Source: Argopecten irradians | Lineage: Eukaryota > Mollusca > Bivalvia > Pectinida > Pectinidae | Assembly (NCBI RefSeq): GCF_041381155.1 | Contig: NC_091135.1 | Coordinates: 66,243,067 to 66,307,066, forward strand | Length of the DNA: 64,000 nt | Direction: 5' to 3' | Shown here: positions 3,104 through 62,610 of the stretch, one piece after another | How positions within the stretch are numbered: position 1 is the stretch's first letter | Layout of the letters: each line of letters begins with the position of its first letter | The notes under the pieces: model-generated | Told to the model about the DNA's origin: nothing | Seen by the model: only the letters and a program-made list of their open reading frames with translations | Databases searched by the model: none | Made by a program: the position numbers and the translations under genes

Positions 3104-6100
3104 ATGAATTGACAAAACATCTGCCAACTTCCATACAAGAGAATGTGAATCTCTCTGAGAGTACAGAGGAGAAAGGGATACAGGAGAGACTCAACCCTCC
3201 CCCACAGCCACCATCTCCCCCCGAGGTCGAGGAGGAACAATATGGCCCAGCCCTTCCTCCTCCAGGTAAAATATGCATCACATTTTTCTCCATCTTGTGT
3301 CAGAAATCTCACACCTAGAGTGTGCAACAAATTATTTTTTAATGTTGTTATGATGACTTATAACAATCTTCTGATACAGGTGCCTCCAGTACTTCCTCTA
3401 CAGCGTATGTAGATCTGACGTCATCTTCTAGTCGTAAATACAGACACAAGGACAGACACAAAGACAGACACAGGGAAAAACACAAACACAAGAAAGAGAA
3501 AAAGGTATGTCGTCATATCTATAAAACATGTGAAACTGAATCTTACTTTTCATGTTGCTTGATGAAGAACGATAAACAATTTAATAATTGTGTTAAATAT
3601 GCTTTTTATGCCCCTCCATGAAGTGGGAAGGTGGACATGGTGTTAATTCTGTGAATTGACAAGAATAAAGCATTACCTTAATCATTATTTGTAGTACATG
3701 TTATAATATCCAACACCAATTTATAAATATTTCTTTCATTGCTATCATGACTTATGTCTACCAACATTATAGGTTGTTCTTAGTGTTTCCTACATTTATT
3801 ATACCCCGCCCAACGAAGTTGGCGGGGGATATACAAATGGGTTCCGTCCGTCCGTCTGTCCGTCTGTCCGTACGAATGGTTTCCGGAGCATAACTCTAAA
3901 ACCAGTAGAGATATTTCCATGAAACTTCATACACACATTGGTCTTATGGTCTAGTAGTGCCTTTTGCTATTTTTAGGTTTGCATTTTTTGCATTTTTACC
4001 GTAACCATGGAAACATTGCTGAAAATATCATATTTTTGTACCAGGTTCGTTTCCGGAGCATAACTCTAAAACCAGAAGAGATATTTCCACGAAACTTCAT
4101 AGACACATTGGTCTTATGGTCTAGTAGTGCCTTTTGCTATTTTTAGGTTTTCATTTTTTGCACTTTTTCCGTTACCATGGAAACATTGCTGAAAATATCA
4201 TGGTAAATGGTAAATGTTACTTTGCAAAACTCCACCCATCTTTGTGTATATAGTCTAATATAAATGTCAAGGCTGTATACCTGATTCAACAATTGCAGCC
4301 CCGCTCTACTTGAATTATACTCCATCTTTCTTTAGCTCAACTTCCTTTTTCCTGTTTTTTTTTCATACACATAAGTCTCCACAATCAAACTTACTTCAGC
4401 TTTGATATCTCCATTGGCGGGGGATCTGAATGACTATGTCCTTGTTTGAAGATTGTTTTATGCATTGAATTTTCAAAACATACCGGTATGTAGCTGTGCC
4501 TTGCCAAATTTTTTTTCAGTTTCTCTGTTTTAAACCGGAGATGTTTACCAAGGGATTAAAGAACAGTTCTAGACATCAATATTATTTCGCCTTTCAGGCT
4601 AAACATAAGAAAGACAAACACAAAGAGAAAAAGAAAAGTAAGAAACACAGACGACGTAGTGACTCCAGCGATTCGGATTCAAGTGACTTGGAGGATGATA
4701 AAGAGCTATTTCAGAAGTAAGTGTTTCCTTTGACCTACAGTTTGTCCCCACTTATTGTGAAACTGTGGAACAGTCAACCTGAAGAAGTTATTTCAGCATC
4801 CAACATAAACTGCTTTAACTAGAGGCCCATGGGCCTTAACCGTCACCAGTGAGTGCGGATAAATAATGACACAAAGACATACAAACACTATTTATTGACC
4901 CATCAGGCCCTTGAAGTCAGTGATTTTATAGATTTGCCTTTTTAGGTCATCTGACCGAAGGCCAGGATGACCTATTGTCATCATGTTTTATCCGTCGTCG
5001 TGCGCTGTCCGCCGTGCGTCGCACAAAAGACTACATTGTATTTATTCAAAAGCCTTCTCATCCTTAACCCTTGAGTGGATTACATCCATATTTGGTGTGA
5101 AAGATCATTGGGGATTGCAATCATATCTTATATCAATGGGTTAGGTCCGACCCCTAGGGGCAGAGAGGCGGGGCCCCAAAATGGGAAATTTTCTTAATTT
5201 AATCTTTAAAATCCTACTCCTCCTTCATCCAAATTGGTGTGAAAAATCATTGGAGAAGGACAATCTTTTTTTTCATAAATGAGCCTGGTCCAACCTCTAG
5301 GGGCTGGGGCCCCAAAAGGGCAAATTTTCTTAATTTTAGCTTTAAAATCCTACTCCTCCTTCATCCTTGCTTGGATAGCAACAAAATTTGTTTTGAAACA
5401 TTGTTAGGAACAGGCAATCATATTTTATATAAATGAGTTAGGTCTAAAATCTTCTTAATTTTAGCTTTAAAATCCCACTCCTCCTTCATCCTTGGTTGGA
5501 TAGCAACCAAATTTGTTTTGAAACATTGTTGGGAACAGGCAATCATATTTTATACAAATGAGTTAGGTCTGACCCCTAGGGGCAGAGGGGTGGGGCCCCA
5601 AAAGGGCAAATTTTCTTAATTTTACCTTTGAAATCCTACTCCTCCTTCATCCTTGGATGGATGACGACCAAATTTGTTTTGAAACATTGTTGGGAAAGGG
5701 GAGGGGGGGCTCAAAAGGGGGAACTTTACAGCACCGTTACAATAAGCGTACGTGTGACGGCCAGTCTAGTAGGTGGTTCGCTTGATTGGTAGCTAGTCAG
5801 GTTGCCAACGACATTCAATAAGCTGTGTAAGCACGGCTCTCATTGGCTGTCGCTTCAATGTAGGGGCGGAGCTAAAACAGTTGGAAATGTCTGTCGTCGA
5901 TTACTACATAAAATGATCGGCATCGTAAGCTTCATAATGTAAAAAGGTTACACAAATACATTTTAATTACCTCATGTATAGACTCTAAATCAGCGCTAAT
6001 CAGTGAAGTACTTATGGAAAGAGCTACTGTTGTAGTGGAAAAGTCAGTCAGAAATTGTACGGAAAAGAAATCACCTGCTTCTGACTAATTATAACTTTAC

Positions 6101-9100
6101 CGCAAGGTGTGTGAAACCAAATCGGGTACAATGTACAACCGACCATTGTGTTTTGTCAAAATATATTCCGATAAAACACGGCTTTGACACATACCTGGAT
6201 GTTAGTAGGGGATGCTATTCCAGCTGTAGGCGTAGATTTTTTTTAACTTTGTCACCAGTATTTAATCAGAGAGATGCATTTGAATCTATAGTGTTGACAA
6301 TTTCTCGGCTAAAATCAACCTACATTTTGTAAACTACCGCCGTGCATGCGTCAACGTCCGAGAACATTACCTCGAATATGAATCAAATTAAATTATAAAT
6401 ATTTAGGCAATGCATTCAAACTCAAAGTCTACAACTAGAATAACATCCCCTACTACATGTAACATCCAGGTATGTATCAAAACCGTGTTTGATCGGAATA
6501 TATTCTGATAATACATAATCTATTGTCAGTCGTACCTGATTTGTTTTTCCACACCAAACGGACCTTGCACAGCGGAAAAGTCAGTCAGAAGGAACAACAG
6601 TAGCTAGATTCGGCTGTGACATTACATGTAGCATTAGAATGGATAGAATAGATAAGAAAAGTTTGATCCATTGGAACGTTGGTAGATACATAACGTTACG
6701 CTACAGTATGACTACTCTTCGAAGTCGAGAGAAATAGCCAATAATTTATGAACAAAACATTCACTTAATAAGTGAAACAAAACAATTACGATTTTTTAAT
6801 ACAGTGATTGAATGTATACATTGTAAAAACATAAATAGTACACAACGTGATCAAACACATTGTACAACAGAGTCGGGTATGAACATCAAAGATCCGCTGG
6901 CTCCGCCTACTTCTCAATGTTGTCGCCGATCTTGTCAGTCAGGGGGCAATCAGTCGGGTAGCCCGAGATACTCTGGCCCTGACACCAGACTTAGACATTA
7001 TGACAGATAGATGTCTGGTTTAGGGCCAGAGCGCAGTAGTATTCGAAAATCTGGAATAAGCTGACACCATTTGGTATCGTGCCAGGTCATCTCTGATTCA
7101 GACTACTTACAAAATATTACCACCGAAAATCGCCACTTACCTTGGTCTTTTCAACAAATGAATAGTTTATCTTCTCATAGCCATCCATTTCATCACGAAT
7201 GCACGTTCTAGTGTCAACACAGTAGTTTCTTTTCCGCAGCTTTAAATTTCCCTCATCTTCGTCACCATTTTGTAGTAGTATGCAAATCACCTTAATCTCG
7301 ACAGATTACTATATTTGGGTAGATATAATATTCATTTGTTGAATAGACTAAGATTAGTGGTGCTTCTCGGTGGTCAGTCTAAATCGGAGATGACTTGGCC
7401 CGATACCAAAAGGTGTCAGCTTATTTCAGGTTTTCGAGTACTACTGCGCTGTGGCCCTAAACCAGACATCTATCTATCTGTCATAATGTCTAAGTCTGGT
7501 GTCAGGGCCAGAGTATCTCGGGCTATCAGTCGGGCTGCCGATGCTTTAGCCAATCAGTGCCTTCGTTACATGCCACCTAAAATCTAATCTACTGCATCAG
7601 TTACCAGCCTACTAGATCAGCTACCAGCCAACGTGTCTATCGAGTGAATGAATGTAAACAGGAACACTTGTTGTAACGGCGCTGTAAGTGAGGACAATCA
7701 TATATGTTTTTAAAGGACTGAGGTAAAGACCAATGGGATAGAACGGCAGGGGTTCAAAATGGGAGCTTTGCTGAAATTTGGCTTTAAAATCGGACTCCTC
7801 CTTAATCCTTGAATGGGTTACAACCATATATGGATGAAGGGCTACCAAGTTTGTTCAACAAAAGACCTTTACCTATTTCAGAAACTTACATATTCAACTA
7901 AGGAGTTCCTGGTATTGTTTATATTAATTGTTAACCACTACTTTATACTGTGACTTTGTTATTTTGTGCCATGAGTCAGATGACCTGTAAGGCCCATGGG
8001 CCTCTTGTTAATCTATGAAGATTATTTGGTTCCATCAAATCAGGGAATTAAGAAGAAGATTATTGAAGTTTTAGCCTAATTGGCCCATTTTGGCCCCGCC
8101 CCTAAGGCCCCTGGGGGTCAGTCATGGGAAATTTGTTAATAGGATTCAATGGCCATTTCATAGGGATAATTCTGACAACATTTGACTAATTTTCTATTAC
8201 AAATGACCAAATAATGTTCATAAATATGTTTTCCCTATATTAACTGTTATAGTAAACTTAACCCCCTCCCTAGGGGGAAACCTGAGACCCCATAGTCATA
8301 TAATTCACAATTTTGTAGAGAGCCTTGAAACCTTCTATCTATGAAGAGTATTTGATTCCACCACATCTGTGAGTGGAGAAGAAATGTTTAAAATTTAAGT
8401 CAATTTTATTCCTTTTGACACCTCCCATAGACCCCCTGGGGGGTGGGGGTCAGATAATTCACAATTTTGATTAGCCTTAGGCATTAAATGGTTTGTGCAA
8501 AATTTTATTGAAATTGCTTCAAGTGACCTAAAAATAAACAACAATTGGAAAAATCAGGAAATATTATTTAACTATATTAGACTACCTTAACCAGAATATG
8601 AACTTAATTTTCTATATTCTATTCTTATTACCAACTGTGCAGGATTTCAGTATGTGTGGAATAACATTTTATGTTGTTTATCCTCTGGTATCAATTGAAT
8701 CAAAATGAAGTTAGAATCATTACTCTTTGATGCCTATTGTGTACTTTGTAATACTTTGTGTAGGTCCATTTAATACTGGTCATCACACAAGCTTATGTTA
8801 ATATGGCCGAAAATACAACATGAAAATTGTTCACTTTACTCACAGTGCAATCAAGACCTCATTACCAAAAGCTTTTAAACAAAACTGCTGTTAGATTTTG
8901 TAACTTGTTCTTCCAGTTGTCATAGATATCATTCCATCCTGTTTCACAGAAAATAAGATATTCTTGCCTTAATTTACAAAATTACCAAATTTCATTTTCA
9001 TTGAAAATTTAAGCCAACAACTAATATATCTCGAGCTTTATGTATTACTGGTATGTCATGTACCATCAAGTGGGTATTGTTTCTGTATTCAGGTTGAAAG

Positions 9101-11895: not shown

Positions 11896-14800
11896 CTATG
11901 CACGGTCATCTACACCAGCCTGTGTCATCAGATCAGCGATGTTCTTCTCCAGATCATCAATGCGGTTTCCCATCTCATCAAGTACAAGCAGTTAAGGAGT
12001 TCTAACTTCACAGGTACAATTGTAATTAACTAAGCATACAAATTCAATAAATCGTCAAAATATCTAAACGTGATTCTTTGGTTTCATTTCTTCATAAAAC
12101 AGTCCAATACATCTGACAACATTTACTTCTTCCACAACATGTGACTAGAAATCTGAACCCTTAACCAACTTTTAATATCAAAGAGAATATAATGGACTTG
12201 TGATTAGCTTATATAAAAAATAAGACCCCTACCTAAATCTTGCTATTACCTGTCTGATGGACAACTTTTACAACAATGAATTACATTAAAAACTCCAAAA
12301 TGTAGACCTAATACTAATAGATCAATGTAATCAGGCAAGTTATTTACAGATAATTAAACCCCCACCACTTTTGACCTTTTTCTCTTAATGGGTTACCTTG
12401 AAATATAATCAAATTCCTGGTTACCTTGAAATATAATCAAATTCCTAAGAATAAAGTTGATAAGCCTAGTATAGAGAGTAAAGGATATTTCTAGTGATCA
12501 CCTGGTCGGACATGTTCTGAAACTTGTCCTGCATCTGTTGTAGAAGGGTTTGTACCTGTAACACAACAACAAAGGTATAGGAATTTTAAATCATCAGTGC
12601 CCATCTTGCAAATCATTAGTTTTCTATCATTAATACATTGCTTGAGATTTTCATCATATTTAAGTAGTTTTATTCCATTATTCCAATGCAAAGTTAATGT
12701 ACAGTTAAAAAAAATACTGTAATCTTCAAGACAATAATAGAATAGTTTAACCTATAAATCAAAAAGATATGTAGAGTAGATGTTGATATTTTGTCATTGT
12801 AGTGATGTTACTTTTCATGTGAAATAATAAGAGTTTAACTGCTTTGAATTTTTCATTCCTGATTTTATGATGCATGATTATATATGTTGCCTACAAATAC
12901 ACAAGTAAATTTAAAAGTAAGGAACTTTAGGCTCTACCCTCTGTAGATTATTGATTTTATTTCCAACAAAGGAACTCCCACAATGGTGTGTTTGTTCTAG
13001 TGTATTGATTGTGCATGTCACTACATGTAACAGCACTATACACAAGGTTTCACTTCCCATAGTTCCCCACACATGTACAAAGTATTTACTGTGGACCACT
13101 ATATAACAGGGATTTAAGCAAACAGAAATCTCCATTAACTTTGAGCTAAAATTTATTGCCCACATATAGAATACTATAGAAGCATAAACTTTAAGATGAA
13201 ATGTTTCTCTACACAACAAGTACACAAGGTATTGTAAATCTCAGCTGTAGAAGTTACTCCTTCAGTTGAAGATCTCACCTGTCAGTTATAAAGGTATATG
13301 TGTACTTGGTCATGGCAATATGCATTGTAATTTCAGCAATAGAATACCGTATGAGGATTGGCCAGTAACACTTGTATATTAGATCGAGAGATCGCATTGT
13401 TATTCACAGAAAAATGTGTTTCAATCCCTTTGCTTAATTATAGTTCAGAAATATTCCGTGAAAGTATAATTTATTACATAATATGTTGTATGATGTGTAA
13501 TTATTAACAATGTTACATCCTTTTTTATAATATATATTTATTATTAAAATTTCAGAAAGTAGATAATTGGCTAGAACATGTTCCAAATGGTATGGATTTT
13601 GCTGACATATCTCTCTACCTAGACTCTATACTGACTGTTACATACATGTGGCCACAAGTTTGACAAACACTTGTATCCAACCACCCGCACGCCATATGTT
13701 TAAAGGTAATGCAATAAACATACCTGCCTGTATATGATACCTTTTATGACAATAACCCTTTGTAGGTATTGTCTATACCTATAATGTATATCTAAATAAT
13801 TCATATCCCTGCTATACCTACACAAGTTTCAGTCTCGCCTGAATGATTATAAGTACATACATATTGATTCTTTGAGCAGATTATGCTTAGGTGTGCAATT
13901 TACACATCTATGCTATGGTCTAGTGCTATCTCAAAGTTTTCTGGAAAGAAAAAAAATGACACTGGTCTTTATTGTAACTGGTGCAGATCTATTTATTTTC
14001 CTTTTTTAATTAGCTTAATCATTTGTTTAATTATCATAACATAGAATCAAGACGGTTGTACAGCATGAATCCAGATTAATCTAAAGAAAAATATAAACTA
14101 TATATAGCTACCATTTCCTACTGCAAAGCTAGAAGTAAGCTCTCTTAGAGTATTTAGTAAAGATATTGCATTGGTTAAAAGCAATTTTTATTAATACGAA
14201 AACAAAGAACAATATTAATCTGAAACATTACATGTTAATTAATTAATTCCAGACTGGTATAGTAAGTACCAGTAAACAATGTTTCAGCACTGTAAGTAAT
14301 AATTGAGAATAAATATATTGCAATTATCCAAAGAAAAAATATCCATTACTAATGATAGTAGAAGTGTACACTTGATATAGTAAATGTTATCAAACCTTTC
14401 AATATATTCAACTGTTGTCTTTAAATACTGAAAGTTAATAAAACCTTTAGACTTTAGCTGACATTAGCATTATAAAGCTTTAATATATGAGACTAAAGGT
14501 AGGCTTTAATTTCTATGGACATTTATTGTGCAGTGAAAATTGCTTTTCAAAGCTTTCATTTTCTGAACATTCCACTATACACAGCTGTACAAAGTATTGA
14601 ATGCAATATTTAAATGAAAAACTAAGCCCTTTGTCCTTTGTTGGACAATCCGCCGGGGTAATCATTTATTTTGGGAGTAACATAGTGGAGGTTTAATTTT
14701 CTGCTGTTGAATATACCATAAACCAGGTGGTACACAATTCATGCTATCATGATAAACATATTCCCCTAGTCTAAGTTAGTAGTCTTTGATGCAAACTTGA

Positions 14801-16750
14801 AAAACAGAAAACTTCATATCCTTTACGATCACTAGATAACCTTTTCGCTTTACATTATATTGCATTGTGTAAAACTAAAAAGATTAAAGTTCAAGAATGC
14901 TATATATAAATTGAGAAAATGTGAACTTTTATAATTTCAACGAATAATTAAAATTTGAGATGGAATAAGATTAAAATTGTGGTGGGTATGGTCAGCCTAG
15001 TGTCATTCAAGGAGTGAATAAATCACATACAAAAACTATAGCAACACTACAGGACAATTTCTCAGCTTTTTAAGAAACATTAATCACTATGGGAATTTTA
15101 ATTTAATTCATAACTGAATCACATATACAATGAGTCATGGTTTGAAAAAGTCTATAGATTAGTATATGCTGACTTCTTCAAATTCATGGACTTTTTACAT
15201 TAGTCATTACCTTGTGAAGCAGAGAGGTGGAGTTTAAGTATAGTAAATCTACTACGCTATACATACTTAAATGTTTTAAAATTACCACATGGCCAAAAAC
15301 TATACACGCATAATTTAAGTATAGTGTATAATTCTTGTAGTGAAAAAAAAAACGTCTTTGCCTTTTTAGGTTATGTCTTATGCTTTCCTGCTACAGCGTA
15401 TTGCATGTCTCTAGATCTGTCAATCTGTCATCAGCATTTTTATCTCGAAAAGGTCTTAGTCTGAAGTGATGACTCATCATATCCAATAAATATTCAATAG
15501 TTGTGTTAACAGATATTAATCCACCAACACAGTAGATTTTTTCCCCCAACCCTTTTAAGTAGGCCATAGGTCTGTTTCTAGTTATGCGATGTGTAGCGGG
15601 ATTGGACTGAGTCGATCATCGGTGACCAGGTAGCTCAGTCGGTAGAGCACTCGGCTAGTGTTCGAAGGGTCCTGGGTTCAAATCCTGGTCTGTCCGCTAC
15701 ATTTTCTCCTCTCCTGTTACAGAATTGGCGCCCAACTAAATAACCCATGGTGGTGGCGTTTGGAAGGGTCTTGATTGTATGTCTTCAAGGGCGAAGACTT
15801 CGAGAAAGGAGGGAGGAGATTAGAGGGATTGGACTGGGTCGATCATAGGTGACCAGGTAGCTCAGTCGGTAGAGCACTTGGCTAGTGTTCAGAGGGTCCC
15901 GGGTCCGAATCCCGGTCTGGCCGCTACATTTTCTCTTCTCCTGTTACTTCTTTTTAGGTTATGTCTTATACTTTCCTGCTACAGCGTATTGCATGTCTCT
16001 AGATCTGTCAATCTGTCATCAGCATTTTTATCTTGAAAAGGTCTTTGTCCGAAGTGATGACTTATCATATTCAATAAATATTCAATAGTTGTGTAGACAA
16101 GATATTGATCCAACACCAAAGTAGATTTTTTTCCAACCCTTTTAAGTAGACCATAGGTCTGCTTCTAGTTATCTGATGCATACCTTGGCCTGTATTATAT
16201 GTAGAGTAGTTACAGTGTACAGCTACATTGTATCTTAATGCATCAAGCGCATATCAATAAAACTCATAAATTCTTTTGAACTCACTCACTCAGAATAGTA
16301 AAACATATTTACATTACAGCAATCCAACGGTTGATGTGATGTCCTCCACGATAAAGTTCACCAGATATTACAATATTTTTTATAATGAAAATAAGTGCAA
16401 CATCAAAAATGCCAAGTGTTGTTTTATTAGCAAATCATGAAATTAGGCCTAATGCAAAGTTAGTTTATTTTATTGAAATATACACACAAAAATACCTATT
16501 CGTTGGCATAGAAATGATACATGGGATATCGACAGACCTACCGATCCTGACACAGTTTCGAGGGAAAACAAAGCGTGTTTGAACTTGTCAAATATGTTAG
16601 CTCCCTACTTCCAACCCCTCTTCACCTAGCCCAGGTAGAATAGCTCCCATGTGGAATAAAATAGAGAAATATACTTACAAATGCAGTAAGGTCTTGGACG
16701 TTCTTGGGATCGGCATTGTTAGCCATGTAGTCTTTGCCGTAGTCTGCCAT
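11896..16750 (-). CDS. HSBP1: Heat shock factor binding protein 1
   Basis: Complete three-exon gene: 16679-16750 (24 codons), 12489-12555 and 11896-11981, total 74 residues. It starts [20 protein letters not shown], continues [40 protein letters not shown], and ends [14 protein letters not shown]. This matches animal HSBP1 (76 aa in human) along its whole length. The family is a short coiled coil of hydrophobic heptads that oligomerises, binds the HSF1 trimerisation heptads and dampens the heat shock response; it also assists WASH complex assembly. The ATG at 16750 has G at -3 and +4. An in-frame upstream ATG at 16858 would add 36 residues including a duplicated LSEQHR, but has poorer context. 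Intron 1 is GT-AG (4,123 bp, holding a miniature LTR element). Intron 2 reads as AT-AC U12-type. Confidence 0.95.
11982..12488 (-). other. AT-AC U12-type intron (HSBP1 intron 2)
   Basis: Read on minus, the intron opens with ATATCCTTT at 12488, the minor-spliceosome 5' site. It closes with branch motif CTCCTTAAC (11999-11991) and TAC, the last intron base being 11982, ten bases beyond the branch adenosine. Only this junction restores the conserved ...VITRIDEMGNR... frame: the one nearby GT (CAG|gtgatc) has no AG acceptor that keeps the family residues, because an in-frame TAA lies just upstream. Confidence 0.88.
15363..16184. repeat. Direct repeat pair A/A' flanking a miniature LTR element
   Basis: A (15363-15590) and A' (15950-16184) are ~230 bp direct copies, about 90 percent alike by eye (GGTTATGTCTTATGCTTTCC; TCTAGATCTGTCAATCTGTC). 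The miniature LTR element lies exactly between them. They are far too long to be a target duplication. Both sit in HSBP1 intron 1. Confidence 0.8.
15592..15947 (+). mobile_element. Miniature LTR retroelement (TRIM-like) with tRNA-type pol III promoter in its LTRs
   Basis: Two ~128-130 bp terminal direct repeats (15592-15721, 15820-15947) bracket a ~98 bp interior. Just after the first is TGGCGCCCAACT (15726-15737), like a tRNA-Lys primer binding site. Just before the second is a purine tract, GAGAAAGGAGGGAGGAGA (15802-15819). Each LTR contains a tRNA-like segment with A box TAGCTCAGTCGG and a B box (15675-15685 in the first, GGTTCAAATCC). No coding capacity, as usual for TRIMs. The two LTRs differ at roughly 10 percent of positions, so it is an old insertion. 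No clear short target duplication. Confidence 0.65.
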
Positions 16751-17789: not shown

Positions 17790-19617
17790 TGCTATCACTT
17801 ATATCGACGAACGGCCGATGAGATTATGTCATGGCGCAGCGTCCTGGGTCCGTCCGTCCGTCCGGCCGGCCGTCGTCCATCCTGGGTCCGTCGTCAACAT
17901 TTCCTTTAAATCGCTACTTGTCATAGAGTTCTCCATGGAATGTAACCAAATTTGGCCAGATACATCCTTGGAGGAATGGGAACAGAGTTTGTATAAATTT
18001 TGGATCTGACCCCCAGGGAGCAGGAGAGGCGGGACCCTATAGGGGAAATAAAGGTAAATCCTTTAAATCGCTACTAGTCATAGAGTTCTGCATGGATTGT
18101 AACCAAATTTGGCAAGAAACATCCTTGGGCGAAAGGGAACAGAGTTTGTATAAATTTTGATTCTGATCCCTTGGGGCAGGAGGGGGGGCAATAGGGGAAA
18201 TAGAGGTACAACTTGTAAATCCTTTAAATCGCTTCTAGTCACAGAGTTCTGCATGGAATATGTAACCAAATTTGGCAAGAAACATCCTTGCGGGAAGGGG
18301 AACAGAGTTTGTATGAATTTTGGCTCTGAACCCTTGGAGCAGAAAGAATGGGTCCAAATAGGGAAATTAGAGGTAAATCTGAAATTCCTTCAGAAAAGAA
18401 ACAATGAACCTGTAATCAGAACATTATACTTGGCATTACAACAAAGAGATTGAAATTGTAGATTCGTTTTCTTATCTAGGAATATTGATGAATTACAATG
18501 GGAGTTTTCATAAAACGAAATTGAAACTGTTGGAACAGTCAAGAAAAGCTATGTTTGCTGTTTACAAGAAAATAAGAAACATCCCTCTTCCTATTGATCT
18601 CCAGTTAAAAGTATATGATTCCCTTGTTTTACCAATATTGATGTACTCAGTAGAAGTATGGGGTCACGAAAATATTACAGCTATAGAAAAGCTTCATTTA
18701 CAGTTTTGTAAACGTATACTCGGCGTTAGGAAAAGTACGTGTAATTACATGGTATATGGTGAATTAGGGAGATTCCCTCACTATATAGAGGTTAAAAACA
18801 GAATTATTATGTTCTGGCACAAATTGATTACTACTGATAATCTTTCAAGTAATATATATAAGTTGATGTTAAACTTGCAAACAAATAATATCATGGAATT
18901 CAAATGGATGCATAATGTTAAAAATATTTTTGAAGAAACTGGTTTGAATTATATATGGGACTTCCAGAATGTATGTACATATAATAGAGAATATTTAAAA
19001 TCTATCGTAAAACAAAGATTACAAGATCAATTTGTACAAAAATGGTTTAATGATATAGAGAATTCATCAAGAGGTCGTACTTATTCTATTTTTAAAAGTA
19101 ATTTTGAATTTGAAAAGTATCTTGTGAAACTAAAGCCAATAGATAGACAAATCATCATAAAATTCAGAACCTCGAACATGCACTTACCTATAGAAACTGG
19201 AAGATGGACCGGGGCCCTGAAGTAAATAGAACTTGTAATCTATGTTTTACTGATATTGGAAACGAATATCATTATTTGTTTCAATGCAGTAATGAAATGG
19301 TGAAACGTTTACGAGAAATGTATATACCAAGTTACTATTATAGAAACCATAGTGTTATCAAAATGAAAGGCCTGTTTACTATATGTAACATTACTGTTCT
19401 GACAAATATATGTAAGTTTTTGAAAAAAATTGAAAAAACTATTGAATGAGCATGTACATCACTAATACATATTGTAATGCACTGTTGCGCTATGGGCCCA
19501 ATATACTTGTATGTTTATATTATGTATAGTGACCTCCTGTTACATACTTGTATGTCTTGAGAGTGAAATAAAATCTGAATAACCAGGTGAGCGATACAGG
19601 CCCAATGGGTCTCGTGT
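17790..19617 (+). mobile_element. Helentron-like element H3 carrying a LINE fragment
   Basis: The 5' end is degraded (GGCCGATGAGATTATGTCATGG) and is followed by GTCCGTCC repeats, about three H1-type ~150 bp units and the H1-type tail to 18441. A LINE 3' fragment follows, and from ~19582 the element's own end resumes: CCAGGTGAGCGATACAGG, hairpin remnant GGCCCAATGGGTC, CTCGTGT. Confidence 0.7.
18442..19581 (+). mobile_element. 5'-truncated LINE fragment (RT C-terminal part), same family as 24930-28324
   Basis: Opens in mid reverse transcriptase (KEIEIVDSFSYLGILMNYNG), continues VLPILMYSVEVWG, and shifts frame near 19205-19225 into CNLCFTDIGNEYHYLFQCS, a Cys/His C-terminal motif. It ends at GAGTGAAATAAAATCTGAAT. 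Residue by residue it parallels the minus-strand LINE at 25081-26403. The polymerase active site is not included, so it is dead on arrival. No clear target duplication. Confidence 0.85.
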
Positions 19618-33004: not shown

Positions 33005-36000
33005 GGACAGCTTTCGTTTAACATTTTTTTTTAATTCATTTTTTATTCATTTTTTTTTCAAAAAATATTTACATCACAACATATACAGAAGATACATGAA
33101 AGACGAGTACAATAGAAGTTACATTTGTAGAGATATTTCAAATTGAATATTTTAACGTATGTACATACATATATTTACAAGTAACTTATTAACGTAACAA
33201 ATACACACACACATTCACATAAAAGGTATATCAAGAGTTATTTCCCTTCCTACAGATGTAATGAGAAATTGAACTAGGGGAGACAACTCTTGATAAAAAA
33301 TTACACCAAAGACAGGACAAAAAAAAAATTAAAAAAAAGAGGGGGGGGGGAGTAAACCTAGGTCACAGATCTTTCAATTTTTTTTTTAAATATTACTGTT
33401 TATACATTTAACCAATTTTGTAATTCTGCAAGTGCTTGTGGTTTCCGCTTTAAATTACTGTTGGATATTATAATCCTGTGAGCTTTTAGTTCAAATTTAA
33501 TATGATTTTTTAGACTGTTTAAATTGAGTTCTTTTTCTTGACATTTGCAGTTGTAAATGTGTTGTTTTACTAGAAGCAGTATCAAATTTTCAATATGGAA
33601 ATTAGTATTTGTACTATCTTGTTTGCCGAAGATAAAATCCTGTTTTTCGAATCTAAGACTTAATTTATTAGTAATTATAGAAATTCTTAATTGTTCAATC
33701 AAATTTGATACATTTTCACAGTCCCAAAATATATGAGTGATTGTTTCTGGATGTGTTTTACAAAATGTACATAGATTGTTGTTTGATTTACCAATTCTTA
33801 AAAGAAATGTTTTTGTAGGTAGTATTCTGTGATTTATTCGAAATTGTAACCATTGAAGCTTTGAGCTAGTAGTATCATTAAAAGGTTGTTTATAAATATT
33901 TCCCCATTCATCCCGATCAATTTCAAAATTTTGATTCCATTTATTTTGAGCAGTAGGTATAACTTCATTTTTAATTAATACATTATATATATTTTGAACA
34001 CCTTTTTTACAACTTAAAATCAATTTGAGGTTTATTGGTATGTTAGGAAGAGTTATATTTTTTCAGAGTCAAAACTTTGTTGATTGTTTCTGATGACATG
34101 ATTAATGGCATTTTTCATACCCTGATATTCTAGAAAATTGGTCTGAATATTATACGTTTCACGAAATTCTTCTAGACTATATATGGATTTGTCTGTTTTC
34201 AAAATGTTATAGATAAATATAACACCCTTTTCATACCATAACTTCTTAAAAATAACTTTATGATTTATTCTGATTTCATTATTAAACCAAATAGGGTTTT
34301 CTAAAATATTTGTTTTGTAAATATAATTTGAACTTAAGGTCGTACACCAAGCCTCTAGAGCATCTCTCCAAAATAAATTTTTACAATTTTTAGATTGTTT
34401 TTTTATGTGTTCAATTCCAGTATTCGCTAATTTTTGTTTGTCAAATAGAGATCTTAGAATAATATCCCAGTTTCCTTCTTTACAATAAATTCTTCTTATC
34501 CATGATACTTTTAGAGCAGTTATAAAAGATTTTAGATGAATCATTTTAAGCCCCCCTTCCTCATATTTTTTAATAATTACATCTCTTTTAATTTGATCCG
34601 GTTTACCATTCCATAAAAAATCAAAGCACAGACAATTAATTTGTTTAATATACAAGTTATCAGGATTTGGAAGCGATATAAATAAGTGGTTGAACTGGGA
34701 TATTAGTAAGGTTTTTATTACAGCTATTTTGCCAATTGGTGTAAGAATTCTTTTGTTCCAAATTGAAATTAGTGATTTTAGTTTTGCAAGTTTTTTGTCG
34801 AAATTCAGTTGGATTATTCTGCTTAGATCTACATCATATTCAATACCCAATAGATTAAAGCGTGTGGTTCCCCATTTTAAGTTAAGATTAGAATTAAATG
34901 TATTATTACTGTACTTCATACTGCCAATCCAAATTACCTGGGTCTTCGAGAAATTCATTTTTAAACCAGATATATTAGCATAGAAATTTAGTGATTTGAG
35001 AGTTTGATCTAAAGATTTTTTTGAGCCATCTAAAATAACAGATGTGTCATCAGCAAATTGAGATAATAGAATTTCATCTTCATGTAATAGTATACCTTTA
35101 ATATTTTCATTATTTCTTAGTAGTATGGATAAAATTTCTGCACATAAAATAAAAATATATGAAGAGACGGGGTCACCTTGACGACAGCCTCGCTCTATAT
35201 GGAAAAAGTTGGACAGATTTCCCCCAATATTTACTGCTGACTGTATATCATTTCTAAAGAGTTTTATCCACTTGATTATTGTAGGACCAAAATTAAAGTA
35301 TTTTAGAGTTTTATCAATAAAGTTCCAGGATACAGAGTCGAAAGCTTTTTCAAAGTCTATTAAAAGTAAAAGTCCCGGTATATTATTTTCTTCTGTATAT
35401 TGCATAACATCATATATTAACCTTGTGTTTTCGCCAATGTATCTTCCAGGGATGAATCCAGTTTGATTATTGCTAATTAATTTACTGATTACCTTTTTGA
35501 ATCGTTCTGCTATTGCGCCTGATGCTAATTTATATATATTATTTAAAAGTGTTATCGGCCTCCAATTACTTAATTTATCGCGGGGTTTATTGCCTTTTGG
35601 AATGCATGTAATTATTCCTTGTTTTTGAGTTATTGAAAGTTCTGATGTGCTAAAACTATAATTAAGTGATCTTAAAACAAATGGTCCCAATTGCTTCCAA
35701 AATATTTTCAAAAATTCCACTGTAAAACCGTCAGAGCCAGGACTTTTATCATTTTTCATTTTTAGCAGTGTGTTGTTTAATTCATTTATTGTAAGGGGTC
35801 CTTCAATATTTAAAGATTCTTGCTCTGATAATTTAGGAACAGTATAAGATTCTAGAAGTTGTTCAAGATTGACATTACTTAGATTCATAAAGAATTTTTT
35901 TTTTTATCCGAGATAACCGTTCCATCTTCTTTAGATATGTAAGGAATAATTTTACTAGTATAGTTGCGAGACTCTAAGTTGAAGAAATATTTAGTGGGTT

Positions 36001-37045
36001 TTTCTCCTTCCCTTATCCATTTCGCTCTAGATCTTATTATGCTACCATTTATTTTTTGTTTTCTTATTTCTTCTAATTCCTTCTTTTTATCTTCTAACTT
36101 GTTTACTGATGTATTATTTGGCCCTGTTTTTTCTAATGCCTTAATTTCATTAATTAAATTTTTTTCCCTTTCATTAGATGTTTTTTTTATATGACTTGAG
36201 TATGATATAGTTTTACCCCGAATTTCCATCATTAGTGCTTCTAAAATGAGTTGATCATTTATTGTAAATACTATAAGATTTGACGATATATCTTTTACAT
36301 TATTAATATTATATACGGGTACTGCATATTGAGATTTGGTATCTTCTATTGTAGATTTAATAAGGTTTAAAAATTCATTATCGAATAAAAGAGAATTATT
36401 AAATTTCCATAAACCTTTACCACGTTTAAAGTTATTAAAAGACAAGTTAATTATTGAGAAAGAATGATCTGAACGGTAACCTGGTTCAATTATTGAAGAA
36501 GTCAAACTTGGTAAAAGACTATCTGATATCAGTATATAATCTAATCTGGCCTGTTTTTGTGGATTTTTTCTACGCCAAGTATATCTTTTAGTCTCAGGAT
36601 TCTTTTCTCTAAATGTGTCTACTAGTCCAAAAGTGTCTATATATTCCAAAACTTTCTTTCTTGCATTTGGGTTGTTTATGTTTTTATAGTTTTCACAATC
36701 TAATTTAGGATCAAATATCATGTTAAAGTCTCCACATATTACATATTTGTCATTTCCAAACTCTTCTATAATATCAAATATTTCGTCATAAAAAGGAGGT
36801 TGGTCAATGTTAGGTCCATATAAAGTAATTAATGTTATTTTTTCTCCTTTAACTATTATATCTAAAGCTAACATGTTACCGTTCAGATCTTTCTGTAAAA
36901 TTTTATATTCAAAATTATTATTGAAAAGTATAGCAGTTCCTCTGGAAATAGAATTAAATGAGTTGAATACACAGTCAAAACCCCAGTTAGAACGAATAAT
37001 TTTTTCCTTATCAGATGTAAAATGTGTGTCCTGGAGGCATTAAAT
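33005..37045 (-). mobile_element. L1/Tx1-like LINE, nearly full ORF2, 5'-truncated
   Basis: Reading down the minus strand, CLQDTHFTSDKEKIIRSNWG (from ~37030) enters an APE endonuclease: LITLYGPN, ICGDFNMIFDP, RYTWRRKNPQKQARLDYIL and the catalytic GYRSDHSF. The frame breaks in an A-run near 35890. The RT (34053-35888) shows KSPGSDGFTVEF, CIPKGNKPRDKLSNWRPITL, LLIDFEKAFDSVSW, GCRQGDPVSSYIF, the active site SQFADDTSVIL and LLGIEYD. After another break near 34030 the C-terminal part has CTFCKTHPETITHIFWDC, the usual zf-RVT motif. The 3' end on minus is A-rich (33005-33060). The endonuclease start and ORF1 are absent. Few breaks, so relatively young. Confidence 0.9.
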
Positions 37046-37429: not shown

Positions 37430-40400
37430 ATTTGAAAAACCCCGGGTAGGGGGTTACTGATGTTAATAAATTCCAAGTTCATAGCAAAAGAAGTAATAAT
37501 GGAAACACAGTTTCGTGAAAATCTGTTTGTAGAAATTAAAACTGGGAAAACTACAAAACTGCTAATAGGATTGATATACAGATCGGAATCGGGAACCATG
37601 GACAACAACAAAAAATTACAAGATTTGATGGAAGAAGCCGCTCAGAAAAAAAACACAACAAACTTTTGATAATGGGAGACTTTAATTATCCAAATATAAA
37701 CTGGGAAACATGGAATACAAAGAGCGAGAATACAGATTCTCAAGAATACAAGTTCATTCAAAAACTCCAAGACAACTTTCTTTTCCAACATGTCCAAGAA
37801 CCAACAAGATGGCGAGGTCAAGACAATCCGAATGTCCTAGATCTTATCATAAGCAAAGACGGTGTCGGGAATTTTCGTACCGAAACATTTTCGTACCGGA
37901 GACATTTTCGTACCGGGGAATTTTCGTCCGGGTATTTTCGTACCGAAAATTTTTATTTCGTTTTTAGTGTTCCATTTAATTCTATTGATGATTAGTCTTG
38001 TCAACAACATTATTTTGATTATTTTAGGCGATTACAGACCTGTACATATTATTCAGTTTACGAAACTACGTAGTCTCTACGTACATGTGTTGTTAACTTG
38101 CTGGCACGTGTCAGCGTCGTTGTAGTAATTACGTTGTCATCTAGAGCCCTTGGGGTTTAATTGGGTGCTTGTTTAATGAATTACAAGTACATATATAGAA
38201 CAAAATGAAACTGATGAAAATGTTATCATGATTAGCTAAAGATGGACATGGGTCAATATCTCAATCGCAGACAATTTTCGTCCTTGATGTTTATCTCTTA
38301 ATCAAATATAATGCACGAAACAGAGACATAAATTTCGGCAAGTAATAAGTCTATTTAGGACAGCATAAAGAATAGTTTCTAGTTTTAAATTAAGCAAAAT
38401 AATAATAAAAGTTAGATCTATTAAACGATTTTGAAGAAAACATGTCCCTGTCAAATGTCCAAAACGTACACGTATGTATCAATTTCTCACATTGAATAAT
38501 ATAATGGTTATTGAGTTATTTCTTCAAATACTTGAACCAATATAGCACACATTAATCAGAAAAATGTTTAAAGAAGTCTATCTAATCTTTACAATGAATA
38601 CTATTCTTTCTATGCATGTCATTATCGTTACAGTACAGCACTAGAAATTGTTGAAAATGTTTGCCTGTCCTTAGTTATGGCAACATAAACCTCAATCATT
38701 GCTTACTATTTAAATTTTAACTGTTATTTTTTTTATTGTTCAGCACTTTGCCATTTTCATTATATCAATATACATTATACATGTCTATAAATTCGGAAGA
38801 ACTGGGCTGGTGACACTGCGTAAAATATGTATTCTTACCTGCATGAATAAAATTATCTGTCAAACGCTTCTTGAAACAATGTATACGCATATTCTTTATT
38901 TTTCACTAATCTAGTAGTTTTACTGAAAAACCTCACACAACTCTTAATCAAGTATTAGGGTATATTTACAGGCCTAGCTAATGCCTAAATAAAATTGTCC
39001 TTTGATATATTTTACAGGGTTTAACAGCTTAATAATTTTGTGTAAAATTTATTATGAAACATGTTCGAGTCTGTTTATGATCTTACAGGGCACTTACACT
39101 TTTAATGTATTTGAAAAGTATTTCGTTTTTACAGACATAGGATGTATAGACATAGGTATCACACAAAATGATCTTCATTAGTAACTGATTGCTTGCACCA
39201 ATTTTTACTGTAATTTTTGTTTTATCAAAAGTAAATCATATACAATGTAATCAAATACAAATGTATGATAAATATAGTGTACACGTGTAATCATTTTAAA
39301 AGCTGATTTTCCTTTTTTGTTTTGGACTGTCTTGTAAAAAGAATAGATCGTCATTTTTAATTAAAGGAGGATGTTAAATAAACCAAGGACTTGTAAATCC
39401 TTGAATAACCGAAAACCCTATACATAATGAAGATGTATGTATCACAAAATTAATTTCTTAGTAGTAACCGGTTGCTTGTGCCAAAGCCTTTCTACTTTTT
39501 GTAAAACAGGTCTGTAACCCCTAGAAAGTAACTTTCGAACAGAAGTTCAATAGAGAGACAATGAAGATTGAGAATAAACGGATTGCGTCAATTTACACAT
39601 TAGAAAAAATATAATTTACTGGCGCATATTTCAACTTGCGAGGTACTGTAAAACAGGATGACCCTAGCAATATATAAATTCAACATACATATATGTGTAA
39701 CGATTGTAGAACACAGTTTGATATTGACGTGCTCCCGTGCACGTGGCTGTTCCTTTGATCAATCAGTCAGTCAGGTATAATTGACAGGCACGTGAAGTGT
39801 ATGACTCCTCCCCCATTGAATATCATTGGCTGGCGAGCTCTCACCACACGTGTCAGTCAATATATTATTACAGGTGATTGACAAGGCGGTCTCCTCAACC
39901 GACCGGTGACTCAGCTACCTTTTCTTTAAGACATGTTTCTAAAATAAATGGCATTTTGTATGATTTTTAAATCATGGTTCACCAGAAAAATCTACTTGGT
40001 TCAGCAGATAATCTACGACTTGAATTTGTGTCAAACTAAGTACTGTTAGATACGTCATGTAATATATGTTTACTACCAAGCACTGACTGCCGCGATGTCT
40101 GAAAAGCTAAATACTGTACGCAAAAGAAATCGTCCATTGTAATTCATAGAGTAACTCAATACATCCACAGCATTAATAACACAACATTATATCATGTAAG
40201 TATATCAATAGTTTTGCGGTACGAAATTTCCCCGGTACGAAAATTCTCCGGTACGAAAATTCCCGGTACGAAAATTCTCCGGTACGAAAATTCCCGTATT
40301 CGCAAAGACGAGCATTCACTATCAGATATTGAATATCAAAGCGCTTTAGGTAAAAGTGATCACTGTGTACTACTGTTTAAGGTCATTTGTAAAGTAAAGA

Positions 40401-42717
40401 TAGCTCTACAAAGCAAGAAGAAAAAGAGTTATAAAAATGCCAATTATGAAAGGATAAACGAGGAGATAAGTGATACCAACTGGGACGAAATAATTATGAA
40501 CTCTAACAACATCAACGAGAATTGGAACACTTTCAAAAAGGTGGTCAAAGAAATAGAAGAAAGCCATGTCCCTACAAAAATCATTAAAATAGGTCGGAAC
40601 AACAAGCATAGTTTCCCAGCAGATACAACAACACTTGAAGCCATAAAAAAGAAGCATTCGTTATCAAGGAAGGCTGCAACTACAAAGGATATGAACGTGA
40701 GAAAGGAATACAATAGGGTCAGAAATAAAGTAAGGAAATTAACACGCAGATTGAGGAAAGAATATGAGCACAATATAGCGATAAAGACAAAGTCGGATCC
40801 AAAAGCAATTTGGAATTATATAAAATCTAAATCTACGTCGAAATCAGAGATTGGAGAACTATATGCAAAACCAGCGGACAAAACTTCAACTAAAGTTACA
40901 TCAAATAAGGGAAAAGCTGAAGTGTTATGTCGGTTTTTTAGCAGTGTATTCATACAGGAATCGGACACGACCCCTCATCTGTACATAAGAGAAGTCGCCG
41001 AAGAGATGTCACAAATGAATATAGAACAAGAAGCTGTATCAAAGATCCTAAAAAATCTCAAACCGGATAAATCCCCCGGACTAGACGAACTCCACCCGAT
41101 GTTCCTGAAAAACACCTCTGGTACAATATCATATCCAATAACGAAGTTATTCAACCAATCAATTTCAACAGGAACTCTCCCGGATGATTGGAAAAGGGCT
41201 CGAGTGTGTGCCATTTTCAAAAAAGGAGATAAGTGTGAACCGGGAAATTATAGGCCTGTAAGTCTCACGTCAGTTGTTTGTAAAACACTAGAAACTCTAA
41301 TAAGGGATCATATAGTAACATTTATGAGGAAAAACAAGTACTTCTCCAACAAACAATACGGTTTCTAAATCTTATCAGGTAGATCAACAACATTACAACT
41401 TTTAGAAGTTTTGGATAAATGGACAACTGCTTTAGATAAAGGTGACGTAGTCGATTGTATATACATGGATTATCAGAAAGCTTTTGATACAGTTCCGCAC
41501 AACCGTTTACTGAATAAATTAAACTCATATAATTTCAACCAGCAGATGAAAACTTGGATTTCATCTTTTTTGAAAGGAAGACATCAAATGGTAACAGTGA
41601 ATGGCAAAAATTCCGAATGGTCAAGTGTAACATCAGGAATTCCACAAGGATCGGTTCTTGGACCCTTATTATTTGTGATATTTGTTAATGATCTTCCAGA
41701 TATAGTGCAGTCAGACGTATACTTATTTGCGGATGATACTAAAATATTCAAGGCTATCCGTGGCAAAGATGATGCTTTAGATCTGCAAAGTGATTTAGAT
41801 ACAATGTCGAAATGGAGTGAAACGTGGCTTCTAAAAATGCACCCAGATAAATGCAAACACATGAGGATACACAAACAGAGAACAAGAAACCAACGTGAGG
41901 AAATTATACAATACCAGCTCAATGGAAAAACACTGCAACATATAGACCAAGAAAAAGATATAGGAGTAGTTGTAGATTCCACGTTAAGCTTCGACACCCA
42001 TATATCAGAGAAAGTAAAAAAAGCCAATTCCATGTTTGGACTTTTGAGAAGAACTTTTCAGTTTTTAGACATCAAATCATTTATTCCGCTATATAAATGC
42101 TTAGTTCGGTCTCATTTGGACTATGCTTGCCCCGTATGGGCGCCTTACCTACAGAAGCATATAGAAATGATAGAAAGTGTCCAAAGAAGAGCGACAAAAT
42201 GTCTACCAGGAATGTCACATCTAGCATACAGTCAAAGGCTGGAGAAACTGAAATTACCAACATTGGCATATAGAAGAATACGAGGAGACATGATAGAACT
42301 CTTCAAAATTTTAGATGGAATATATGACTCCGAATGTTGTAACATTTTATCTTTATGGAAAGATGCAACGGACCGCGAGAGCAGCAGGGGGCATAGGAGG
42401 AAGCTATTCCATACAAGATCAAACTATGAGATTAGGAGAAACTTTTTTTCACTAAGAGCTACTAAGATATGGAACGATCTACCAGAGAATGTAGTGATGG
42501 CGCCAAATATAAACTCCTTCAAAAATGCGTTAGACAAACATTGGAAAGAACAAGAACTCTTATACAACTACAAAGCCTTTATACATCATTAATTTATTAT
42601 TATTACCGGATAAAAATGTATTAACTGTAAACTCTATATTTTGTCTGAGTCTGGTATAGAGGACTTTACATATAAGTCCTGAACCAGAAATAAACTTATC
42701 TTATCTTATCTTATCTT
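37430..42717 (+). mobile_element. CR1-like LINE split by a foldback transposon
   Basis: The endonuclease part (37430-37861) reads FIAKEVIMETQFRENLFVEI, LIGLIYRS and, after a frame change, MGDFNYPNINW...NVLDLIISKD. The frame continues after the insertion at 40302 with DEHSLSDIEYQSALGKSDHC. The RT part has DKSPGLDELHP, DDWKRARVCAIFKKGDK, an in-frame stop at ~41367, YMDYQKAFDTVPHNRLL, SGIPQGSVLGPLLF and the active site LFADDTKIF. The C-terminal part includes RSHLDYACPVWAPYL and RRATKCLPGMS, ending at 42592. The tail is (CTTAT)n-like (42693-42717), as in CR1/L2 elements. 5'-truncated within the endonuclease. Confidence 0.9.
37862..40301. mobile_element. 2.44 kb foldback-type DNA transposon inside the CR1-like LINE
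   Basis: The LINE sequence GCAAAGACG is duplicated exactly at both edges (37853-37861 and 40302-40310), a 9 bp target duplication. Each end is an array of about five copies of a short unit, GGGAATTTTCGTACCG, with CGTACCG the constant core; the right-hand array is inverted. Outermost bases are GTGTC and, inverted, GAATA. The 2.2 kb interior is AT-rich with no open frame of interest. Subrepeat-built inverted ends plus a 9 bp duplication recall foldback elements and Mutator-like MITEs. Superfamily not proven. Confidence 0.85.
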
Positions 42718-61536: not shown

Positions 61537-62610
61537 TTATTTATAGTGTATATAAACGATCTCCCTGAAATAACAACATCTTCATCGCCACTATTTGCAG
61601 ATGACACAGGCAGATTAGAAACGATGATGATGTGAGAATTCTCCAAGAGGACCTGTATAAACTCCAAAACTGGTCGAACAGATGGTTACTCAAATTCCAC
61701 CCAAACAAATGTAAGGTGATATCAATAAAAGCTTCCCAAGAAAAGACATTACTACATGTATATGAATGGAGATGAAGGAGAGAGGATTCAATTGGAAAAC
61801 ATCACACACGAAAAGAACATTGGGGCAGAAATTTATATAGTTATATTTAAATCTCTTATATTTAAATCTCTGATTGGGGTAACTATATATCGATGAGGAA
61901 TGAATTTTAAAACCCACCTGCATAATATCGTTAACAAAGTGAACAGCATAGTTGGACTGATTCGAAGATCTTTTGTATATCTTGATGAGTCAATGTTCAA
62001 GTTACTATTTCAAGCTCTCGTTAGACCACACCTGGAATACGCGGCGAATGTATGGAACCCATATAGAGTGGCAGATATATCGACCTGATCGAGAAGTCCA
62101 GAGAAGGGCATCAAAACTTATTCCGGGACTCAAAAACCTAACATACGAGGAACGCTTAGAAAGACTAAATCTTCCAACTTTACAACATCGGAGAACTAGA
62201 GAGGACATTATAAATGTTTTTAAAATAGTTAAAAACATATATGATCATAGAGTAACTGAGAACTTTTTCCAAATGGACAGTACAGGCAGAACGAGAGGTC
62301 ACTCTGAGAAAATTTTTAAGAAACGTTGCAATTTAGAATTAAGAAAGAATTTCTTCAGTAACAGAATAGTAGACATATGGAATAATTTGCAGCAATATAT
62401 TTTAGATGCAGATACTGTATACAACTTTGAAGTAATGTTAGATGAATACTGGAAAAATATTTGTTTTAAAATCTAATAGATTCTAGTCTTTATTGTCGGA
62501 TCATAGCCATTGATATACTGGAATTTATTTACTTATTTTTTATGAATGTATATATTGTTGATATGGATATAGAGGCTTCCAGCCTGCATCCAATAAATCC
62601 TAATAGAACA
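61537..62610 (+). mobile_element. CR1-like LINE 3' fragment, broken
   Basis: Begins in the RT (VYINDLPEITTSSSPLFADD, polymerase active site) and breaks frame several times. The thumb and C-terminal part follows (IVGLIRRSFVYLDE, LVRPHLEYAANVWNPY, VQRRASKLIPGLKNLTYEER, NLPTLQHRRTREDIINVFKI), with the stop at 62474-62476. Similar to but distinct from the CR1-like LINE at 37430. It ends near AATAAATCCTAATAGAAC. Confidence 0.85.

Follow-up and report, generated by a model that had tools for sequence, protein, structure and literature searches.

The second intron of the HSBP1 gene begins and ends ATATCCTTTACTC...AACTCCTTAACTGCTTGTAC, as read from the sequence and checked by script, and raises the question of whether it belongs among the minor (U12-dependent) spliceosomal introns, in their AT-AC subtype, or is an ordinary intron with other borders. 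The gene lies in the window, the whole stretch of 64,000 nucleotides that was analysed (G000:C2:66243067-66307066), within a genome of 845.8 Mb. It occupies the minus strand and contains 74 codons and a stop over three coding exons, in agreement with the 74-residue gene described by the sequence-only reading. The layout is as follows:

16679 to 16750, minus strand: HSBP1 coding exon 1, encoding 24 residues; the GTAAGT donor of intron 1 adjoins it
12489 to 12555, minus strand: HSBP1 coding exon 2, encoding 22 residues and ending with an additional A
11896 to 11981, minus strand: HSBP1 coding exon 3, starting with TT, followed by 27 residues and the stop
11982 to 12488, minus strand: putative U12-type AT-AC intron (HSBP1 intron 2), 507 bases, phase 1

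The joined protein matches the Pfam HSBP1 family (PF06825) with 102 bits, above the curated cut-off of 28.6 bits, and its residues 19-69 cover positions 1-51 of 51. The closest known protein is HSBP1 of PDB 3ci9, a chain taken here to be human. The C-terminal end is short (AGVDDRA), whereas human HSBP1 has a longer tail. Across the whole genome, the Pfam profile gave two exon matches at E <= 0.001, and the protein itself gave three at E <= 1, all of them its own exons. Because these matches are to its own exons only, the gene looks single-copy and without a retrocopy; no retrocopy recording the spliced junction was found in the whole genome at E <= 1. Scans of prokaryote and viral contigs returned no HSBP1 relatives, as expected for such contigs.

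Intron 1, 4123 bases long, is of the ordinary GT-AG type. It contains two Rfam tRNA matches (15624-15696 and 15851-15923 of the window, + strand, approximately 230 bases apart) on the strand opposite to HSBP1, which are possibly tRNA-derived repeats. Elsewhere in the window, long open frames resembling LINE reverse transcriptase/endonuclease were recognised by eye at 18416-19225 (+), from 26664 and 28383 (-), at 33400-37039 (-), at 40103-42600 (+) and at 61961 (+).

The signals within intron 2 are the following:

12480 to 12488, minus strand: 5′ splice site ATATCCTTT, 9/9 to the U12 consensus, at the exact exon edge
11991 to 11998, minus strand: branch-point word TCCTTAAC, complementary to the U12 of this genome; 11992 is the presumed branch A
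11982 to 11984, minus strand: 3′ splice site TAC, read directly and placed by junction enumeration
12391 to 12446, minus strand: perfect 28-bp tandem duplication, to which no role is ascribed

The U12 donor and branch consensus sequences were taken from PMC6259924 (legend to Fig. 6). Compared with the donor consensus, ATATCCTTT, the HSBP1 donor agrees at 9/9 positions, and it carries the ATATCCTT(T) used as a criterion. The branch region CTCCTTAACTGC agrees with the long consensus TTCCTTRACYCY at 10/12 positions, and its core, CTCCTTAAC, read directly, with TTCCTTRAC at 8/9 letters. A second 12-mer in the intron also reaches 10/12; beginning at base 3 of the intron, it shares bases with the donor. 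The A at 11992, which is taken to be the branch adenosine within TCCTTAAC, lies 10 bases before the last base of the intron. The earlier description of textbook minor-spliceosome signals (donor, branch and terminal TAC), with a branch adenosine ten bases from the junction, is thus borne out. The intron splits an Ile codon as A/TT, in phase 1, and with unlike bases next to it the junction cannot be shifted. According to PMC10639083, phase 0 is the one that minor introns classically avoid. In its ATATCCTTT donor, TCCTTAAC branch word, terminal AC, short branch-to-acceptor distance and phase other than 0, the intron resembles A-type U12-dependent introns, with no structural difference. Both copies of the 28-bp duplication contain AAGGTAACC on the minus strand.

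The position of the junction was examined by enumeration. Donor positions 12560 to 12441 were combined with approximately 200 acceptor positions, and the 2867 junctions with an open in-frame product were retained. When these were compared with the HSBP1 stretch of 3ci9, the AT-AC junction 12488/11982 ranked first with a score of 157. Ranks 2-5 are shifts of 1-2 bases that change Ile to Leu or Asn and have unusual termini (AA-GT, AA-TA, TA-CT and AT-TT); among the five top placements, Ile is given by 12488/11982 only. It had been claimed that the AT-AC junction is the only one to restore the conserved reading. This holds for the full conserved sequence, for which it is the top of the 2867, but not for the frame, as 8 GT-AG junctions in the scanned range also keep it, in the best case with a loss of just seven residues.

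An extra micro-exon within 11982-12488 was considered as well, and no support for one was found in that interval. 3ci9 aligns with the joined protein over the junction without a gap, and 51 residues account for all 51 profile positions, so no residues are missing there. A micro-exon is on these grounds exceedingly improbable, and readings with a micro-exon or a shifted junction were rejected on the gap-free alignment, the junction ranking and the Pfam profile.

The donor and branch words by themselves are not rare and recur by chance. Over both strands, the window holds 8 copies of ATATCCTT and 4 of TCCTTAAC, and two loose donor-branch pairings occur at distances of up to 5 kb; the second of these, identified by elimination, is on the + strand at 750/5061. 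At least one loose pair occurred in 35/200 first-order Markov resamples of the window. The occurrence of donor, branch and AC at the junction fixed by the protein has a chance of approximately 1.5e-9, calculated from the word frequencies of the window. The coincidence of the signals with a single protein-fixed junction is not due to chance.

The alternative of an ordinary U2-type GT-AG intron from 12501 to 11974 would give a protein without VITRIDE, one heptad of the coiled coil. Its borders are:

12500 to 12501, minus strand: rival or cryptic GT donor CAG/GTGATC in exon 2, 7/9 to CAGGTRAGT
11974 to 11975, minus strand: rival or cryptic AG acceptor GATGAG/ATGGGA in exon 3, from the junction enumeration

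This is the best of the 8 in-frame GT-AG junctions. It starts 13 bases inside exon 2, ends 8 inside exon 3 and keeps the frame, removing exactly VITRIDE to leave 67 residues. For donor scoring, CAGGTRAGT, as the U2 donor consensus, and the letters of U1 were taken as background. On this scale the rival donor exceeds that of intron 1 (7/9 vs 6/9) and its duplex with U1 has an energy of -8.2 kcal/mol, while the acceptor at 11974 has 13/20 pyrimidines before the AG, the same as intron 1. The product does not keep the conserved family sequence, from which the seven residues are lost, at a cost of 30 bits against the family profile (71.5 vs 102) and 39 points against 3ci9 (118 vs 157). A U2-type intron would also give no reason for a perfect U12 donor and branch lying in exact register, a coincidence of approximately 1.5e-9. 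That the intron is an ordinary GT-AG intron is very unlikely; judged from the sequence, the 12501/11974 junction is unlikely to give the main product and believable as the source of a cryptic one.

Two products may also be made: the main one by AT-AC splicing and a shorter one, cryptic or regulated, from the GT-AG pair at times of weak minor splicing. The pair is in frame and takes out exactly seven residues. It has been reported that human cells losing CENATAC retain A-type minor introns and/or turn to alternative major sites (PMC8280824). Against this, the +5 position of the rival donor is not G, and an in-frame pair is expected in approximately one in three cases by chance. This arrangement is rather unlikely. 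A true switch between minor and major splicing is an improbable proposal: efficient minor splicing would yield the full coiled coil, and poor minor splicing, as might occur in heat stress, would divert the transcript to the GT-AG pair with the loss of one heptad. If true, it would result in a shortened coiled coil and altered control of the heat-shock factor. The AT-AC intron could instead be excised by the major spliceosome as a rare U2-type AT-AC intron, since major AT-AC introns are known (PMC8280824). HSBP1 intron 2 has a full-length U12 donor and a near-full branch consensus at short spacing, which speaks against this. Major AT-AC introns are not known to need the full U12 donor and branch consensus, and excision by the major spliceosome is highly improbable here.

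The components required for minor splicing were sought in the same genome. U12 snRNA was found with 108.5 bits, U6atac in two copies (96.9 and 92.8 bits), U4atac with 77.1 bits and U11 in two copies of 100.8 bits each, all above their curated cut-offs. The HSBP1 donor can pair with stretches of this genome's U11, at its 5′ end (-5.2 kcal/mol), and of its U6atac (-6.4 kcal/mol), and the branch word TCCTTAAC forms a duplex of -7.6 kcal/mol with its U12; these energies stand without a shuffled control. Among the proteins, CCDC84/CENATAC gave 4 exon matches and PDCD7 gave 2 matches in the genome. The U11-48K-type zinc finger gave 2 matches, with a short model that also matches 1/14 control genomes (an archaeon). 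CENATAC promotes the splicing of AT-AN minor introns in human cells, according to PMC8280824.

The two U11 copies (G000:C2:16868355-16868483 and 16907088-16907216) are approximately 39 kb apart and show no difference across the matched 129 bases. Their nearest 60-base flanks are also alike, at 60/60 on the 3′ side and 55/60 on the 5′ side. As the matched stretch and flanks are near-identical, the duplication is considered recent.

Channel genes served as controls within the same genome. Sodium and calcium channels have in common an AT-AC minor intron located in domain I, segment 1, as described in PMC6259924 and PMC3634016. From the 74 Ion_trans matches, some were picked, and nine stretches of approximately 10 kb lying at these or upstream of them were inspected. 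One (L047), presumably a Nav1-like (sodium-channel-like) gene by its sequence features, contains a complete AT-AC U12-type intron, ATATCCTTTTACGTC...TCCTTAACACAATGTAC, of 1582 bases at 4871-6452 (G000:C3:42244870-42246451), and its joined exons read LRRISICILTHPCFNLCVILTIIVNCVFMAMNG. Another (L053) contains a complete GT-AG minor intron, GTATCCTTTATA...TCCTTAACTTAAACCAG, of 425 bases (G000:C4:4160278-4160702, minus strand). Its joined exons give a calcium-channel-like segment of 31 residues, and the gene is assumed, again from such features, to be calcium-channel-like. A third (L052), taken on the same kind of features to be the domain-I exon of a Cav3-like gene, shows an acceptor TCCTTAACCTTTTGTAC followed by 25 residues; a donor for it was not found in approximately 48 kb upstream. 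A minor intron was recognised in none of the remaining six of the nine stretches. Beside one channel gene (L046), an occurrence of ATATCCTT was considered as a splice site and rejected, as it is coding sequence.

The channel AT-AC intron of domain I, segment 1, has the same signals as HSBP1 intron 2 and a copy in this genome, but it belongs to another gene and lies in phase 2, in contrast to phase 1 in HSBP1. When the HSBP1 and sodium-channel introns were aligned, the donors lined up but the branch words did not, and the lengths differ threefold.

The Cav3-like stretch carries a further feature. Directly before the domain-I exon, at 876-1400 of L052 (G000:C5:32767875-32768399, minus strand), there are eight tandem units of approximately 65 bases. 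Each consists of a branch-like word, 9 bases ending in ATAC or GTAC, and a copy of the first 11 exon bases. The branch-like word is TCCTTRAC in 7/8 units and TCTTTGAC in 1/8; the exon copy is ATGGTTTGAGC in the last unit, ATGTTTTGAGC in six and ATGTTTTTAGC in one. The last unit is the Cav3-like acceptor itself and the sole unit with TCCTTAAC and an open channel reading, while the seven upstream units lead into a stop. A genome search for the unit, in which very common words were skipped, returned these eight only. The array looks as though a minor 3′ splice site had been duplicated in tandem, and it would offer a natural test of the choice that U12 makes between branch sites.

Taken with the exact junction, the family profile, the four minor snRNAs and associated proteins, and the minor introns of channel genes, which support the AT-AC reading at sequence level, HSBP1 intron 2 almost certainly belongs to the AT-AC subtype of minor (U12-dependent) spliceosomal introns. 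In the proposed sequence of events, ATATCCTTT would base-pair first with U11 and afterwards with U6atac. U12 would form its duplex with TCCTTAAC, leaving the branch A bulged. The TAC ten bases downstream of the branch A would mark the cut, and the A of the split Ile codon would be joined to TT to restore the conserved 18-residue sequence. The transcript is accordingly predicted, in this scheme, to be spliced at AT-AC. The intron may depend on CENATAC, and slow minor splicing may affect HSBP1 output.

Minor introns of the AT-AC kind are well known. The sequence-only reading regarded them as a small minority even of U12 introns, a view tempered by their share of approximately a quarter among human minor introns (24% in PMC8280824; ~26% in PMC10639083). 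Molluscs are relatively rich in minor introns, as noted in PMC10639083. A search of open-access papers, with supplementary tables and intron databases outside its scope, found none on a minor HSBP1 intron. Such tables or databases may well include it already, and the HSBP1 case would appear to be either new or simply unlisted.

The HSBP1 intron by itself leaves the knowledge of minor introns unchanged. The prediction that gene callers restricted to GT-AG would mis-annotate this gene goes somewhat too far: a shortened protein could result, but the gene would not necessarily be broken. With the false junction 12501/11974 in frame, such a caller could silently give a plausible protein of 67 residues, and the error in annotation could pass unnoticed. 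Should other animals have the intron too, HSBP1 would serve as a compact reporter of minor splicing of the A type. In this animal, a small and highly conserved heat-shock regulator appears to depend on the minor spliceosome.
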